A program made the translations under genes and the position numbers. Below, piece by piece: positions 4,122 to 41,927 of a stretch of 42,487 nucleotides of DNA; position 1 is the first letter of the stretch; the number at the start of each line of letters is the position of its first letter. Source of the DNA: a virus. Under the pieces are notes generated by a model that was not told the origin of the DNA, made no database searches, and was given only the letters and a program-made list of their open reading frames with translations. The DNA is taken from the IMG/VR virus record IMGVR_UViG_3300033148_008064, positions 1 to 42,487 of that record. One strand, 5' to 3'.

Positions 4122-4603
4122 GTTCTTTCCCGGATTTCTTGCCTGCGTTGGTTTCTACGAATGGATCCTGGCCCACTGTGCTCAATAGACTCTATTCTGT
4201 ATTCAAAGAGGACATTGTGTCCCTGCGTTTCGGTGGTATGAAAGTAATCACAGACAACCGGATACTGCCCGACGGAGACGGAAAAGAAGAGGGATTTTGG
4301 CACCTCATCACACGCATGGATCGGGATAGGGAGAAACGACTACTGGATCCGCGACGAGCAGAAAGGCTGCGTTGGATCAGGTCGATTATTGAAAATCATG
4401 ATAGGGAAGAGGTTCTGGTGTTTGAATACAGGGAGGAAACATCCAGAAAGGGTCTACGTACATATTTTTGGCTTTCAGACCATAACTATGTGATAATCCT
4501 ACAGAAGAGGGGGAGAGTATACGTTCTATTGACTGCCTACTTCATAAGCAGCAACAACGTCCGCAATGATCTAAGACGAAAGTATAAAGAAAGCCAGAAA
4601 TGA
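4118..4603 (+). CDS. Possible BECR-fold RNase-like protein, partner of the DUF3800 gene
   Basis: A 161-residue protein beginning at a TTG that overlaps the previous stop (TTGA). The C-terminal half carries RRAERLRWIRSIIEN, then a .TYFWLSDHNYVIIL strand pair, VYVLLTAYFI and a closing RRKYKES. This order resembles phage nuclease-like domains of the barnase/EndoU/colicin/RelE (BECR) group. I recognise the pattern only loosely. If right, it would be an RNA-cleaving toxin or host-takeover factor, with the DUF3800 protein as its coupled partner. No antitoxin-like gene is visible beyond that partner. Confidence 0.45.
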   Translation: MSSFPDFLPALVSTNGSWPTVLNRLYSVFKEDIVSLRFGGMKVITDNRILPDGDGKEEGFWHLITRMDRDREKRLLDPRRAERLRWIRSIIENHDREEVLVFEYREETSRKGLRTYFWLSDHNYVIILQKRGRVYVLLTAYFISSNNVRNDLRRKYKESQK

Positions 4604-4691
4604 CAGAAGCCGCCCTCGAGCGGCCTCCGAGCTCCTTCTACACCTGGCAGATGAGCTTCTGTCTATACTATCGCACATACTCATCTTGCTG

Positions 4692-4823
4692 TCAAACACT
4701 TTTTTTGCTCTTTTTTGCTGTTTCCTCTGCTCCAGAGGCCCGCTGGGCCTGCAGGACCTCTTCCACCTGGTGCGGCTGCATCACGCCGATCCGGACCAGA
4801 AACTCGCCGATCTTCTCACTCAT
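4692..4823 (-). CDS. 43-residue protein with a KIGEFLVRIG motif, probably truncated
   Basis: The protein begins MSEKIGEFLVRIGVMQPHQV and continues EEVLQAQR, then ends in a Lys/Ser-rich tail that is coded by an A-rich stretch. I associate the first 28 residues with a short helical domain found in spirochaetal chromosomal proteins, where it is followed by a GD.RLFGEIAI segment that is missing here. The reading is open and regular, but the ribosome binding site is weak. It may be a captured host gene fragment. The motif is the best single hint at host lineage in the window. Confidence 0.55.
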   Translation of the reverse strand: MSEKIGEFLVRIGVMQPHQVEEVLQAQRASGAEETAKKSKKSV

Positions 4824-7393: not shown

Positions 7394-7423
7394 GAAAATC
7401 TCGAAAAAAAAATGTCGAAGATA

Positions 7424-7457
7424 TTGACAATAAAGGTAATTTCGCCTATTATTAGGC
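7424..7457 (+). promoter_or_regulatory. Early promoter with operator 2, apparently leaderless
   Basis: TTGACA (7424-7429), a 17-base spacer and TATTAT (7447-7452) form a near-consensus promoter. GCCTA-TTAT-TAGGC (7444-7457) overlaps the -10 box, and ATTTCGCCTAT repeats the core of operator 1. The ATG of the first early gene begins at 7459, six bases after the -10 box, so the RNA should start at the A of ATG. No Shine-Dalgarno sequence exists. Confidence 0.7.
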
Positions 7458-33317: not shown

Positions 33318-34114
33318 GTCAGACAACGGTACAAAGACCGGAGGCGGTCCGGTTCGGAAGCTGCAAGTTCGAGCTCGGCGAGACCCTTGGCACCCTGGTC
33401 AATATTGGGGCCTTGAGGAACTGCCAGATCGCGGAGAGCTGGGAGGAAGTCAAGGTCGAGAGCGGCAACGCAGGCGTCCTGAAGAAGAAGATCAAGAATC
33501 AAAAGGTTGCGATCACCGCCGACTGGCTGGAGTGGGACCTGGAAACGGCGAACCTGCTGCGTGGAGGGATCGACCAATATGATACTGTCGCGGGATCAGC
33601 GACGCCGGTGACCGATGAGGAGGTCAAGCTCGAGGATACCGACTTCGTCCGCCTGGAGCACAAGAACGGCGACAATACTGAAGTCGCCAGCATTGTCGTG
33701 ACCTCAAACGATGCGACTCCGGTTGCCAGGACCCGGAACATCGACTACATCATCGGCGTAGATCCGGCCGGCTACACCTGCATCGCCAGGATCGAGGGCG
33801 GGGCGATCAGCGACGGGGACACCGTATTGGTCGACTATGAATATACCCCGAACGTCTCCAAGAAGCTGACCAGCGGTGGGAAGTTCACCATCAATCCGCG
33901 GGTCGTGAAGCTGACCAACAAGAACGAGGCCGGCAAGGATCTCACGATCACGATTTACTATGCGATGGTGGGCGAAGGATTCACCCTGCCGTTCCCGGAC
34001 GACACGGCGGATGACGCCCTGGTGGCCGGAGTCAACCTGGTCGGAGAGGTGGACGCTTCCCGGGCTGCAGGCGATCAGCTCTACGAGATCCTGGACGAGC
34101 AGAGCGTAACCTGA
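33314..34114 (+). CDS. Major tail (tube) protein
   Basis: A 266-residue protein. The N-terminal VRFGSCKFELGETLGTLVNI, and then KVESGNAGVLKKKIKNQKVA, and a beta-rich body are typical of siphovirus tube proteins. The ATG follows AGGAGAAGG. Position before the tail chaperones and tape measure fixes the identity. The C-terminal part (about 175-265) may include an extra Ig-like surface domain. It polymerises into the non-contractile tail tube. Confidence 0.8.
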   Translation: MSQTTVQRPEAVRFGSCKFELGETLGTLVNIGALRNCQIAESWEEVKVESGNAGVLKKKIKNQKVAITADWLEWDLETANLLRGGIDQYDTVAGSATPVTDEEVKLEDTDFVRLEHKNGDNTEVASIVVTSNDATPVARTRNIDYIIGVDPAGYTCIARIEGGAISDGDTVLVDYEYTPNVSKKLTSGGKFTINPRVVKLTNKNEAGKDLTITIYYAMVGEGFTLPFPDDTADDALVAGVNLVGEVDASRAAGDQLYEILDEQSVT

Positions 34115-34473
34115 TGGGTGAGTTCTATAACCTTGATTCTCTGGTCGATAAACGCAAGACCATCAGGCTCGCTGACCGGGAAATCAACGTCGCCAAAGTC
34201 CCGGCGATCGTCGTGTTCAAGGCTGACGAGCTCCGGGATAAATTGCGCGATCTTAAAGTCGAGAACAGCCGTGAGCTTATCGAGGCGGCGGCGGACATCA
34301 TTCTGATGATTGCCAAGGCCTCCGGGGATCCGGTCGAGCGGGACTGGCTTCTGGAGAACGCAACGGTTGAACAGATCCTCGAGTTTGTAGCCGTGGCTAC
34401 GCTCGGTCCTGGATACAAAGAAAGGCCTAAAAAAAAAGAGCCGGTCAAGAACAGCGGAGGCGAATCGACTTAG
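34114..34473 (+). CDS. Tail assembly chaperone, G-like
   Basis: A 119-residue helical protein, ATG in TGATG. It ends in a basic tail (RPKKKEPVKN) coded across a nine-A run (34429-34437) that is a -1 slippery site. Together with the frame at 34431-34676 it forms the G/GT pair that siphophages use to chaperone the tape measure during tail assembly. Standard translation gives this short form. Confidence 0.85.
   Translation: MGEFYNLDSLVDKRKTIRLADREINVAKVPAIVVFKADELRDKLRDLKVENSRELIEAAADIILMIAKASGDPVERDWLLENATVEQILEFVAVATLGPGYKERPKKKEPVKNSGGEST
34429..34437 (+). other. Programmed -1 frameshift site (nine A) of the tail chaperone pair
   Basis: In frame the codons are CCT AAA AAA AAA GAG. A tRNA shift back by one on A-AAA-AAA leads into the T frame. 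The zero-frame stop is 36 bases further on. Location and direction agree with the conserved frameshift of siphovirus tail chaperones. Confidence 0.8.
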
Positions 34474-34676
34474 AGCAGCTCGTCGCTGTCATGGGGCATT
34501 GGTATCCCTGGGCGACGAAGGATTTCATTCTCTGGGAGCTGAGCTGGAAACAGGTGGAGATGTACCTGTATCGGATGCCGAAAGAGCTCTGGAAAACGGT
34601 TTTTGTGGGAAATCCTGACAAACCCGACCTCGAGGCGATTCGCAAGATGCGGATGGGGAAAATCATAAGGCGGTGA
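34431..34676 (+). CDS. Tail assembly chaperone T domain, made by -1 frameshift from G
   Basis: The -1 frame relative to G opens right after TAA at 34428-34430 and runs for about 80 codons. It has IDLEQLVAVMGHWYPWATKD and the W..ELSWKQVEMYL pattern. There is no proper ribosome site for ATG 34491, so it is made as a GT fusion of about 187 residues. The GT form should bind the major tail protein while G coats the tape measure. It ends two bases before the tape measure gene. Confidence 0.8.
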   Translation, partial: KKRAGQEQRRRIDLEQLVAVMGHWYPWATKDFILWELSWKQVEMYLYRMPKELWKTVFVGNPDKPDLEAIRKMRMGKIIRR

Positions 34677-37475: not shown

Positions 37476-38332
37476 TGGCCCTTGCACAAGTCACGGTATA
37501 TGCAACCCAAATCGCTAAGCAACGCCTCGGCTACCAGGCGATCAGTCTCACCAATTACAACAACGATCTGGAGCCTCAGATTGCCGCCGGCAGCAAGGTC
37601 GAGATCGGTTCGGCGCTGTTCGAGGCGGCGGCCAATGAGTCGATCTCCGGCTGGGCTGGCATCGGCAATGATAGCAACGTGTACATCAAGCTGGTCGTCT
37701 CCGGAGCCACGGCGACCGCAGAATTCACGACCACAGCGCCGACCTGGAGTACTTCGAAACAAGGCTTTTACGACGGCAACGATCGGTACATCGGGCAGTT
37801 GTTAAAAGATTCTTCCGGAAACTACTCCCACAAGATGCTCTATGGGAGTTTGTCCCCGGGAGGGAACAAGATCGAGGAAATAGGAAAAGTCGAGGCCTAT
37901 ATATTCAAAGAGATTCCGGGACACCTCTGGTGTGACGGATCCACAATCAGCGATACATCGAATCCGGAATACGAACGCTTGGTCTACGAACTCAAGAAAG
38001 AGGCGGGAGCAGATTCAGGACATCCCTATTATCACCCCGACTCGGACAAGGCGGTGCTTCCGGATCTGCGTGGTGCTGCAATCCGGGGTGTGGATATCGC
38101 AGCAAACCGTGACAAGGATGGAGTGAGGAAATCGGGCAGTTATCAAGCTGATGATAATAAAGACCATACTCATACAGTACGAACACGAGGTGCAACACAA
38201 TCAATTGATAGTGTAGCATTTAATAACAATGGTGATGGAGATATATATGATATAACAAATGCTGCTTTATCTTCAGGGTCAACTGAAGCAACGATGAAAA
38301 ATATTGCTTTGTACTACTTGATTAAATACTAA
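37475..38332 (+). CDS. Tail fibre / collar-domain protein
   Basis: A 285-residue protein, ATG in TGATG. Residues about 140-235 form a phage tail collar domain: PGHLWCDGSTISDTSNPEYE, then LPDLRGAAIRGVD, and a G.YQ.DDNKDHTHT motif whose histidines often bind metal. The C-terminal tip (about 225-285) is coded by DNA clearly more AT-rich than the rest and probably binds the host receptor. The stop overlaps the start of a gene remnant. Confidence 0.75.
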   Translation: MALAQVTVYATQIAKQRLGYQAISLTNYNNDLEPQIAAGSKVEIGSALFEAAANESISGWAGIGNDSNVYIKLVVSGATATAEFTTTAPTWSTSKQGFYDGNDRYIGQLLKDSSGNYSHKMLYGSLSPGGNKIEEIGKVEAYIFKEIPGHLWCDGSTISDTSNPEYERLVYELKKEAGADSGHPYYHPDSDKAVLPDLRGAAIRGVDIAANRDKDGVRKSGSYQADDNKDHTHTVRTRGATQSIDSVAFNNNGDGDIYDITNAALSSGSTEATMKNIALYYLIKY

Positions 38333-38373: not shown

Positions 38374-38449
38374 AATAGTAAAACCTGTTAACGATCCGAT
38401 CGTTCTCTTTGAGATCGATCTATCCGTGAAGCACAAAAATCGAGCATGA
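38357..38449 (+). pseudogene. 30-codon ORF resembling the N-terminus of the following tail protein
   Basis: It encodes MAFATEIVKPVNDPIVLFEI followed by DLSVKHKNRA. The IVLFEIDLS segment parallels IYIAEIDIA near the start of the tail protein at 38446, with which it overlaps (ATGA). This is probably a second relict N-terminus, or a small coupled ORF. No independent function is proposed. Confidence 0.45.
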
Positions 38450-40182
38450 GCACATTTGCCGAGCTGATAAAAGAGCCTTCCTCGAAGAAAATCTATATCG
38501 CTGAGATCGACATCGCTAAGCTGCTGAGCTTCGCCGTCAATTGGCGGGCATTCTGTTACATGGTGAATCTCGACGTAGATTATCCGGATGATCCGGAGAT
38601 TGCCGAGGAGTTTCTCAATGGCGTGGAAGTGATCATTATTACTCAGATCGGCTCGATGAGAAGCGACGGAATATTACTCCAGTCGGTAGATAGCGCTCTT
38701 GATGTGCAAGAGAACGAGCTCTCTTTCTACTGGGATTCTGTGAACAAAGACTTATATTTTCACCTGCAGGACGGTGATGAGCCTGAGCTACATAGATTGA
38801 CGATCGGCGAGATCTTTGGTGTTGCCAATTTTGCGGATAATTATGGTGGATTTGTTTATGAGAGCCGGCTCCTGAGCTTTCCTGGAATCGATCGGCAGAA
38901 AGATCCGCTGTTCTTCGGGAAGATCGTGTTCGAGAGTGGCCGACTGGAATGGGACAACCACGACGGATACTTCGATACGTTCTGCGAGGACCGGAATGTT
39001 GTCAATGCCGTGTGCCGGGTCAAACAGGGATTCCCGGAATTGGATTTTTCTGACTACCTGCAGACGAGCTCCGGGATTGCAGAGAAATTTAGTATTGGTC
39101 CGGAGAAGTTTACTGTTGATTTTCGGGATCGTCGAGCATGCCTCGATAAAAAGATCCCAGACGCGATATTCAAGCAGACGACTTATCCATACCTGAAAGA
39201 GAGCAACATTGGCAAGAGCATTCCGATTGCCTACGGAATACTGCGCAATGTCCCCGTTATCTGCACGAATGAGGAGGAGGATCCTCCACCGACTGACTAC
39301 TCGTTCAAGCTTTGCGATACAACCTATCATGGCATTAAAGAGATCACGGAGGTCCGGGTCGAGGGGGCGGCCAAGACGCCGAGTTCCTCGAATCTGATGA
39401 ATGCAACCTTTGAACTGGCCGCGACCGACTACTCTCCGGGCGATGAGGTCCGAGTCGATTTCCAGGGTTATGTAGATGATAGCGATAATCTGATTAAAAA
39501 TCCTCTGGATATCATATTGGATATGCTCGTTACCTACTATCCGATGAATTACAATAACCAATATTTCAATACGGCTGAGTGGGAGATCGCTAAGCTCGCA
39601 TCATCCGACATTCATTACTACTCAAGAAAACCCAAGACGATTATCGATATCATCGAGGAAATCTGCAACAGCACGTTTCTGCTTTTTATCCCGCTCCCCG
39701 ATGATCGATATACGGCCAGGTACTACGACCAGTATGCGCCAACCCTGCAAACGATCCCCCGCGAGGAAGTGTTGGAGACGCCGACAATCGAATACGATTC
39801 GACCCAGATGCTGCGGTACATACGAGTTGGATACGACCGCGATTGGGCTGAGGGTGATTTCAAATACTATCTGCACGACAGTGAGGATGAGCGGATTGAT
39901 CGCGACGAGACGTTCGAGACGCTGTTAACAACGGAAGCCGACGCGCAAGCCTTCGCCGAGACCGTGATGCTGCTCAGCGGTGATCTATATAAACCGTTCA
40001 ACATCAAGATCAAGCTCCAGGCGCTCGAGCGCGAGATCATGGATTTTATTGACGTGGAGATCATGCGACGCAGTAAGAAGATGCTTGGCACAGTTAAAGC
40101 GGAGATTCTCGGTATCAAGCAGAATCCGGATGAGGCGTGTATGACGTTAAGCTGTCGCATCTTGGAGGTAAAAAAAAACTAA
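38446..40182 (+). CDS. Large tail protein (hub or baseplate-like), 578 residues
   Basis: A soluble protein with an N-terminal beta domain (MSTFAELIKEPSSKKIYIAE) and repeated surface-type segments (IDRQKDPLFFGKIVFESGRL, KFTVDFRDRRACLDKKIP). A middle segment, NIGKSIPIAYGILRNVPVIC, resembles tail hub proteins. Later parts (IDIIEEICNSTFLLFIPLPD) and an alpha/beta C-terminus follow. It should form part of the tail tip. The zero frame ends at a TAA after a nine-A run, where a -1 shift would add 24 residues. Confidence 0.65.
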   Translation: MSTFAELIKEPSSKKIYIAEIDIAKLLSFAVNWRAFCYMVNLDVDYPDDPEIAEEFLNGVEVIIITQIGSMRSDGILLQSVDSALDVQENELSFYWDSVNKDLYFHLQDGDEPELHRLTIGEIFGVANFADNYGGFVYESRLLSFPGIDRQKDPLFFGKIVFESGRLEWDNHDGYFDTFCEDRNVVNAVCRVKQGFPELDFSDYLQTSSGIAEKFSIGPEKFTVDFRDRRACLDKKIPDAIFKQTTYPYLKESNIGKSIPIAYGILRNVPVICTNEEEDPPPTDYSFKLCDTTYHGIKEITEVRVEGAAKTPSSSNLMNATFELAATDYSPGDEVRVDFQGYVDDSDNLIKNPLDIILDMLVTYYPMNYNNQYFNTAEWEIAKLASSDIHYYSRKPKTIIDIIEEICNSTFLLFIPLPDDRYTARYYDQYAPTLQTIPREEVLETPTIEYDSTQMLRYIRVGYDRDWAEGDFKYYLHDSEDERIDRDETFETLLTTEADAQAFAETVMLLSGDLYKPFNIKIKLQALEREIMDFIDVEIMRRSKKMLGTVKAEILGIKQNPDEACMTLSCRILEVKKN

Positions 40183-40253
40183 TTTATTTAGAAACCTCGT
40201 ATTACGGGGACACATACTACGGGGACAATTACTATGGCACGACAGTCAATTAG
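40170..40253 (+). other. Second -1 frameshift site with a 24-residue extension
   Basis: The gene ends GTA AAA AAA AAC TAA, containing a classic A-AAA-AAC slippery heptamer (40173-40179) directly before the stop. A -1 shift continues from 40179 to TAG 40251 and adds LIYLETSYYGDTYYGDNYYG then TTVN. The repeated YYGD is too regular for random frame, and the next gene's ribosome site begins right after the TAG. Confidence 0.6.
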
Positions 40254-40265
40254 GAGAAAATCTAA

Positions 40266-41927
40266 ATGGGTTTTATGAACATAAATCTATCGGGTACATC
40301 GTTCAGCGACTACAAGCTCACCGATGTGGGCTCTTCGGCCTATCAGCTCGAGCATGACTGGTTCACCAAGGAGGATTTAGAGATCTGGACCGATGTTGGT
40401 AAGACAGGAACGCAGCTTGCTGAAGGAATTGACTATGAGCTTTCAGAAGAGGATGAGGATCTATCTTTTCGCGTTAGTCAAACTATAGGTGAAACCCGAA
40501 CCGTTTATCATAAGATCACGATCATTAACGCTACCTACCAAACAGGAGATCTCTACCACTCTGGCAAGTATATCGCAGATACCGTTGATGCAGATGATAT
40601 AAATAACTTGGCAAATCATGCTGGTTTGACGGCAGCGGGCACTCACGGTTCTACTGTCTCTGCGACCGCGAACAAGCTTATACACCGCGATGCCAGCGGT
40701 CGAGCAAAGGTAGTTGCGCCATTGGTTGCTGCAGACATTGCGATAAAGAGCACCGTGGATGTGGTACAGACCAACCTGAATACTCATGCCGCTCTGACGG
40801 CAGCGGGCACCCACGGATCTACTGCAGCAGCAACGGCTAACAAACTTGTACACCGGGACGCTTCCGGCCGGGCGCAGATAGTATCACCTTCGGTAGCGGC
40901 AGATATTGCAAATAAAGGTTATGTAGATGGTGTAGCTGGCGGCGCTGCTCTTTTCCCGGTCGGCTGTGGAGATGCTCCCGACATCACGCTGAGCGGCGGG
41001 ACACGTACTCAGCATATTATTTATTGCAACAACTTCACGGTATCAGAAAATACAATCCTGAAAGCCAATTTGGTGATTTGCGAGGGTGATTTTACAATTG
41101 AGAGTGGCAAGGTTCTAACCGTGAGTCCGACTTTGCAGAGAGATGATGTATATTATAACGGTTACACCAGTCCTACAGATCCCGAAGTTGTACCCATTTA
41201 TTCAGGAAAAGGGGGACGTTATTTAGGCAACTACGGTTCGGGCGGTGGTGGTGCTTGGGGTGGATACGCCGGAAACCTGAACGGAGCCAACGGGGGTCAG
41301 GGCGGCGGATCTCTTTGTTGTTGGGGTAAACATTCTTTAACGACAAAGGGGGGTGAACCACGTCTGAAGTCGCCAGCTTTCTCCTTTGGTGGTGATGGCG
41401 GTGGATCTAGTCACACCGCTAGTGGAGGTGGAGGAGCTGGTCCGGGTGCCGGTGGTGGAAGCGGCTACAGTGGAGGTGCCGGTGGTGCTGGTGGTGGCTG
41501 TCTTTTTATTATTTGTAAGGGAAACTTTGTAAATAATGGCACGATCAATTGTAATGGCGGAAATGGTGGCACAACTAGCGGGCGTGGTGGCGGCGGTGGC
41601 GGGGGCGGCGTTATTGTTATTGTCGCATACGGTTCATCGTATACAGGAGGCACGATTAATTGCAAGGGCGGAAATGGTGGTAGCACGACTTATGACGGCG
41701 GTGGCGGGGGTGGCGGTCATATCGAGATTTACGCCAAGACCACTTCTTTTGGTACTCTGTCAGTTGCCGGTGGAAGCGGACCTGGGTCAGCTTATAATGG
41801 TGGTACAGGCACCATACAAACTATAAATATTTCGAGTGCTGTCCATGAATATTTGGGTGGTGAAAATGGGGATTTGATGGCCGGTTTTGTGTTTAATTTT
41901 ATGCCAGGTATAAAGGGAGTATTATAA
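40266..41927 (+). CDS. Tail fibre with a glycine-rich, adhesin-like tip
   Basis: A 553-residue protein; GGAG nine bases before ATG 40266. The N-terminal part attaches to the tail. Two repeats of about 47 residues follow (near 117 and 174), each with LTAAGTHGST, A.ANKL.HRDASGRA and AADIA.K. Residues about 317-500 are made of short poly-Gly blocks (GGGGAWGG, GGGGGGGVIVIV) separated by strands, as in polyglycine-II sandwich tips of gp38-type adhesins. The tip should bind the receptor. The Gly-rich DNA uses mainly GGT/GGC. Confidence 0.75.
   Translation: MGFMNINLSGTSFSDYKLTDVGSSAYQLEHDWFTKEDLEIWTDVGKTGTQLAEGIDYELSEEDEDLSFRVSQTIGETRTVYHKITIINATYQTGDLYHSGKYIADTVDADDINNLANHAGLTAAGTHGSTVSATANKLIHRDASGRAKVVAPLVAADIAIKSTVDVVQTNLNTHAALTAAGTHGSTAAATANKLVHRDASGRAQIVSPSVAADIANKGYVDGVAGGAALFPVGCGDAPDITLSGGTRTQHIIYCNNFTVSENTILKANLVICEGDFTIESGKVLTVSPTLQRDDVYYNGYTSPTDPEVVPIYSGKGGRYLGNYGSGGGGAWGGYAGNLNGANGGQGGGSLCCWGKHSLTTKGGEPRLKSPAFSFGGDGGGSSHTASGGGGAGPGAGGGSGYSGGAGGAGGGCLFIICKGNFVNNGTINCNGGNGGTTSGRGGGGGGGGVIVIVAYGSSYTGGTINCKGGNGGSTTYDGGGGGGGHIEIYAKTTSFGTLSVAGGSGPGSAYNGGTGTIQTINISSAVHEYLGGENGDLMAGFVFNFMPGIKGVL

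Follow-up and report, generated by a model that had tools for sequence, protein, structure and literature searches.

The stretch of DNA analyzed here, which we call the window (42,487 nucleotides, IMG/VR record IMGVR_UViG_3300033148_008064), carries a gene whose product is, as judged from the structure model of a homolog, a siphophage tail-tip hub. The 3' end of this gene holds a run of nine A's and, in the -1 frame, a short aromatic-rich reading frame, and a fiber-like gene follows. These features and those of the tail chaperone gene in the same window are as follows.

34114 to 34473, plus strand: tail assembly chaperone gene (G-like), zero frame, preceding the tape-measure gene and overlapped by a -1 open reading frame
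34429 to 34437, plus strand: nine-A slip site of the chaperone gene, from sequence
34438 to 34676, plus strand: T-like -1 extension of the chaperone (RAGQEQRRR...KIIRR), from sequence
38446 to 40182, plus strand: gene of the predicted tail-tip hub protein, zero frame, 578 amino acids, C terminus ...CRILEVKKN, in phrog_8917; the model of its homolog L026 resembles the T5 hub
40164 to 40168, plus strand: GGAGG, Shine-Dalgarno-like, 5 nucleotides 5' of the P-site codon of the slip site, of doubtful role
40170 to 40178, plus strand: nine-A run, putative slip site for RNA polymerase and/or the ribosome, one of three runs of at least nine A's in the window
40173 to 40179, plus strand: slippery heptamer A_AAA_AAC in zero-frame register, with TAA directly 3' at 40180 to 40182
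40179 to 40253, plus strand: -1 tail LIYLETSYYGDTYYGDNYYGTTVN with its TAG stop, a probable fiber-docking peptide, homologous to the zero-frame tails of L005, L026 and L027 at equal spacing
40266 to 41927, plus strand: fiber-like gene, 553 amino acids, of which residues about 4 to 113 form the class I adaptor domain (alignments A3 and A7, HMM)

The zero frame of the hub gene ends in ATC TTG GAG GTA AAA AAA AAC TAA. The -1 frame reads on as CTA ATT TAT TTA GAA ACC TCG TAT TAC GGG GAC ... GTC AAT TAG and remains open for 24 codons (40179 to 40250); its TAG at 40251 to 40253 overlaps the ribosome site of the next gene (TAGGAG...ATG 40266). These coordinates confirm the first-pass annotation, which had described A-AAA-AAC followed at once by TAA and a 24-codon tail with YYGD repeats running up to the next ribosome site. 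The locus thus combines a slippery site in register with a -1 reading frame that extends beyond the zero-frame stop, the arrangement seen in programmed -1 recoding. The window contains two matches to the pattern YYGD.YYG. Both lie in the -1 tail, and chance does not account for them (mean of 0.00 occurrences in dinucleotide shuffles).

Runs of at least nine A's start at only three places in the 42.5 kb of the window (53.6% GC), namely at 7404, 34429 and 40170. The second of these is the shift site of the chaperone gene, with a -1 frame open to 34676, so that the likeness between the two sites that had been pointed out earlier holds, down to the equal length of the A-runs. The run at 7404 to 7412 lies outside the main genes, shortly 5' of a possible ATG near 7457, and is perhaps part of a promoter region. 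RNA folding did not reveal a convincing 3' stimulator at either the hub or the chaperone slip site. The hairpin 3' of the hub stop is weak (z -2.0) and far downstream, and GGAGG lies closer to the slip site than known -1 stimulators do, both of which count against slippage. Stimulatory elements 3' or 5' of the site are no requirement of transcriptional slippage.

No sequence similarity between the hub protein and solved structures was detectable, a Pfam search with the structural proteins gave no matches, and the function of phrog_8917 is not listed. A model of the homolog L026, made from 20 relatives (mean pLDDT, 86), has as its best match the phage T5 tail tip (7zhj_b; E value, 1.7e-16; TM score, 0.56), followed by the DT57C baseplate and, lower down, Mu gp44 and T4 gp27. 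The fold and the position of the gene after the tape-measure gene are those of a siphophage tail-tip hub of the gp27 or T5 pb3 type, in agreement with the earlier assignment to a tail-tip protein. The monomer model of L026 shows no structure for its 20 C-terminal residues, which correspond to the YYG tail; fold and disorder together therefore describe a siphophage hub that carries a flexible peptide at its C terminus. The window family would thus share its core fold with T5 pb3 (in 7zhj) and gp27-like hubs, whereas the aromatic C-terminal tail is a feature of the window family.

An IMG/VR motif scan, together with hub and adaptor scans, yielded about 30 distinct hub genes; a further hub scan, the third, used a broader alignment and added no contigs. 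Three hub proteins searched by tblastn in 50,697 phage records, blastn against plasmids and two passes through 85,462 prokaryote genomes all gave no relatives, and the comparison therefore consists of IMG/VR metagenomic contigs. In 19 related hub genes the tail is encoded in the zero frame. The hubs of L005, L026 and L027 continue in frame into ...YYGDTYYGDNYYG(A/I)TELRSA, and in them YYGD lies 14 residues from the conserved CR, exactly as in the -1 product of the window; the window tail is identical to theirs at 13 of 13 positions of YYGDTYYGDNYYG, while the hub cores are 43 to 45% identical. Further zero-frame hub ends are YWGEDYWGDELW (L025), YWGNTYWGGSVW (L030), YYNSSYYGAFYFG (L048), YWGGTYWGGDYW (L061) and YWGDRYWGDGVW (L100), and others are more divergent aromatic tails. 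On the hub tree, the window shares a branch with L025 and L100, whose tails are in frame, and zero-frame tails also prevail among the other relatives. We therefore take its -1 state to be derived by the loss of one base in the A-run.

On these results, the first-pass proposal is supported in part. It had held that zero-frame YYGD tails in relatives would speak for a simple indel, and literally such tails are what close and distant relatives encode, at identical spacing. Two virion forms can thus not be a general feature of the family, most members of which provide every hub with a tail, and the shifted state is scattered among the relatives and not conserved in the relatives of the gene. Of the programmed frameshift proposed for the end of the gene, the canonical -1 site remains, as does a selected tail behind a T10 run in three relatives (described below); the window site itself reflects a one-base loss and not a long-conserved signal. 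A similar arrangement exists in those three relatives, and 19 related hub genes have the zero-frame form.

The motif YWG..YWG was tried as a diagnostic for the tail and discarded, as the scan matched mostly unrelated proteins (a recurrent NYWGDxYWG...GxNxLGxxLM family and low-complexity repeats), although L100 was gained from it. Small proteins starting with YWG repeats, such as MADYIGTPEYWGNSYWGGGYWGG, were seen in L108, L149, L125, L120, L127 and L141 and are possibly the same docking peptide in an N-terminal position. The hub homolog of L047 (2842 to 5457) has, at its C terminus, a long stretch of AHENVAHSNIAHEDVAHSDV-type repeats.

A function for the tail is suggested by the gene that follows it. 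The N-terminal class I adaptor domain of the fiber-like protein comprises about 110 amino acids (window 40275 to 40604, alignments A3 and A7); its model has a pLDDT of 89, and fiber-type PHROG matches lie further along the protein. A structure search with the adaptor gave no confident fold match (the best, to the Klebsiella phage Kp9 tail complex, had an E value of 0.47), and its sequence weakly matches the N terminus of the tailspikes Dpo31/Dpo36 (E value, 0.039). All 20 hubs with a class I adaptor as 3' neighbor have a C-terminal extension, 19 in frame and that of the window in -1; the extensions are clearly aromatic-rich except in L045 and L068, whose few aromatics count against the association. 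Hubs without the adaptor end 2 to 7 residues after the core (L029, L033, L036, L038, L042 and L044) or carry other domains there (L032 and L047). Under a strict zero-frame criterion of at least 30 amino acids and one aromatic motif, 18 of 20 hubs with an adaptor have a tail versus 0 of 8 without (P = 1.4e-5, ancestry ignored). On the hub tree, adaptor status changes at least four to five times, and tail and adaptor are jointly absent from L029/L033 and from L042/L044, two pairs that each branch from within tailed hubs, so that the two not only occur in pairs but have also disappeared together at least twice.

In L063/L163 (3300014255_000014), a YWG tail after the core is followed by an inserted domain of ~170 amino acids and a second aromatic tail, which is still the last element before the adaptor gene. 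In L051 and L052, the protein 5' of the adaptor gene ends in AYYGDDSYYA or EYFGVTGYYTSI and has no hub match within the stretch examined. L062 and L069 have an adaptor gene but no obvious aromatic tail on the preceding open reading frame, which counts against the association. L050 encodes a separate 68-amino-acid protein (2781 to 2987) with FYGDSCYG near its start, directly 5' of a class I adaptor gene, and in L066 a homing-endonuclease-like reading frame (2139 to 2959) has apparently inserted between the hub and adaptor genes. Taken together, the aromatic tail is probably a docking peptide for the fiber adaptor domain, a contact that we infer from the association in sequence. The window keeps its adaptor gene and therefore should need the tail.

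A stronger case of slippage than that of the window is found on a separate branch of the hub tree, in L034, L035 and L073 (IMG/VR 3300033153_003603, 3300033148_006171 and 3300033153_004343), which share about 91 to 92% nucleotide identity.

L034 4763 to 4865: T10 site and -1 tail of the hub gene, the same in L035 and L073

Here, the hub gene reads ACA GTT TTT TTT TTA, a T10 run with T_TTT_TTA in register. The zero-frame stop lies 14 codons past the run; read in -1, the sequence encodes RWSPFAINVDKYAINIDEYALSYGRGTYGA, the end of which overlaps the beginning of the following gene. All eight variable sites in the tail are third positions, synonymous in the -1 frame, leaving its 30 residues identical (chance of all eight differences falling at that position, 1.5e-4). 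The slip-reached tail is therefore evidently translated and selected in these three phages, and comparison of their sequences gives direct evidence of purifying selection on it. The hub of L073 is in addition split into two overlapping open frames (744 to 1244 and 1178 to 2458), through an indel or another change of frame inside the hub. Tails of these three and of L040, their neighbor on the hub tree, are of another type (class II), and the protein downstream has a different N terminus (MALDxTxPxDGDG). Considering that fused, slipped and separate forms (the last in L040) are all seen, the tail can be fused to the hub, reached by a slip or probably supplied apart.

Considering these data, we propose that in the window phage slippage on the A9 run joins a fiber-docking peptide to a fraction of the hub subunits, a reading to which we give a probability of roughly 65% on the sequence comparisons. 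In this scenario, the hub of much of the family would use a flexible aromatic-glycine tail to dock the fiber encoded by the next gene through its N-terminal adaptor domain. The loss of one base from the segment linking core and tail would have shifted the tail into -1, behind A9 and A_AAA_AAC, after which RNA polymerase adding one A and/or a -1 slip of the ribosome would produce a tailed share of hubs. Bacterial RNA polymerase slips on runs of nine A's or T's, giving mRNAs with extra bases (PMC5009743), and one extra A in the mRNA would bring the tail into frame. A -1 ribosomal slip on A_AAA_AAC is possible in the window as well; this heptamer is weaker than A_AAA_AAG in E. coli (PMC5009743). 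We favor transcriptional slippage because A9 and T10 are homopolymers longer than the heptamer. The tailed share would be enough for fiber attachment, and the remaining hubs would end in ...EVKKN. As most relatives tail every hub, the slip is better read as making up for a lost base than as part of a conserved program for two hub forms, the loss being tolerable if some tailed hubs suffice.

A more far-reaching version, which we put forward tentatively and regard as improbable, would have A9 and T10 slippage set the share of tailed hubs, such that one genotype gives virions with, without or with fewer distal fibers. Such an adsorption-dosage or bet-hedging device would have arisen more than once in the family.

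Alternatively, the lost A may simply have inactivated the tail not long ago, leaving YYGD as a young relic produced at no useful level, with the fiber attaching without the tail or staying unmounted. The derived state of the window among zero-frame relatives agrees with this, as do the near-identity of the two assemblies that carry it, compatible with a recent event, and the indel-prone nature of A-runs: homopolymers give neutral indels, and an A9 at the lesion is expected for a relic too. A moderately diverged relative of the window's own lineage was searched for and not found, which also counts against slippage; the only close relative in the window lineage, L001, is identical over the -1 tail. 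Against a relic, a nine-A run slips whether or not it is selected for, all 24 codons of the tail are intact despite deep divergence of the core, slip-reached tails are selected in L034, L035 and L073, and the window keeps its adaptor, whereas other tail-less hubs lack the adaptor as well. We thus consider a recent inactivation unlikely, and the -1 tail of the window is, on these comparisons, probably more than a mere relic.

It is quite improbable that the shift is an assembly or sequencing error and that ten A's stand in the true genome, followed by a normal tail in frame, even though the run is a homopolymer one base away from the correct length and the relatives are in frame. L001 is a second, circularly permuted assembly, 99.9% identical to the window, in which the end of the window is joined to its start (a circular or permuted genome). 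A 10-nucleotide indel near window position 37667, in the fiber gene region, and a 1-nucleotide indel near 788 separate the two, which therefore represent related, non-identical viruses, and both assemblies show nine A's where the hub gene ends. The window assembly moreover reads the A9 at 34429 correctly as a -1 site, and short reads, if these were used, are reliable at nine bases.

Very improbable is a small tail protein translated separately, from an initiation site coupled to the 3' end of the hub gene and with no slippage, for which the homologous tail of L040 (CPYAKIICKYAIVIGDYAIDYGKDGLWP, a coupled 55-amino-acid -1 frame at 4569 to 4736 overlapping the hub stop as ATGA), the separate FYGDSCYG protein of L050 and a GTG at 40137 within the -1 frame of the window can be cited, since this GTG lacks a properly spaced ribosome site and lies where the zero frame is conserved, and since the -1 frame of L034, L035 and L073 has no ATG, GTG or TTG except a mid-tail leucine TTG in two of them.

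Returning to A9 slippage onto a docking tail, a peptide of 24 to 30 amino acids and a domain of ~110 would, if docking holds, constitute the coupling by which these uncultured siphophages mount and exchange fibers, and homopolymer slippage would tune or rescue it. Hub tail, neighboring fiber adaptor and slippage are three linked elements, each directly testable. Gene callers terminate such hub genes prematurely.

Slippage is well known to append C-terminal modules to capsid and tail-tube proteins, whose relatives mix in-frame and shifted forms, a mixture ascribed to chance and selection (PMC5009743); gp17.1* of SPP1 likewise carries a frameshift-appended C-terminal module on a virion protein (PMC6316719). 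In the literature, which was covered in part, we found no case on a tail-tip hub. As in the window, a fraction of the protein gains a C-terminal module from another frame in the Ig-like capsid extensions of T3 and A2, in the capsid and tail proteins of Listeria phages PSA and A118 and in SPP1 gp17.1*. In those phages, however, a capsid or tail-tube protein receives an Ig or FN3 domain, whereas the window extension is a 24-residue aromatic-glycine peptide on a tail-tip hub and does not belong to the Ig-like class. Outside phages, a parallel is offered by tssM1 of Citrobacter rodentium, where an A11 run before a premature stop rescues the C-terminal domain at 20 to 25% and both forms are needed (PMC4256274). 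As in the window, the A-run lies just 5' of the premature stop and the C-terminal part is in frame in relatives, but the run of tssM1 is A11, its domain is large and the shift has been proven by experiment, while the window has A9 and a 24-amino-acid tail predicted from sequence. Finally, lambda G/GT resembles the window hub in its -1 slip on an A-run within the tail operon, as does the A9 site of the window chaperone; however, most tailed phages conserve the G/GT shift, by which two chaperone domains are joined, whereas the shift to the hub tail is lineage specific.
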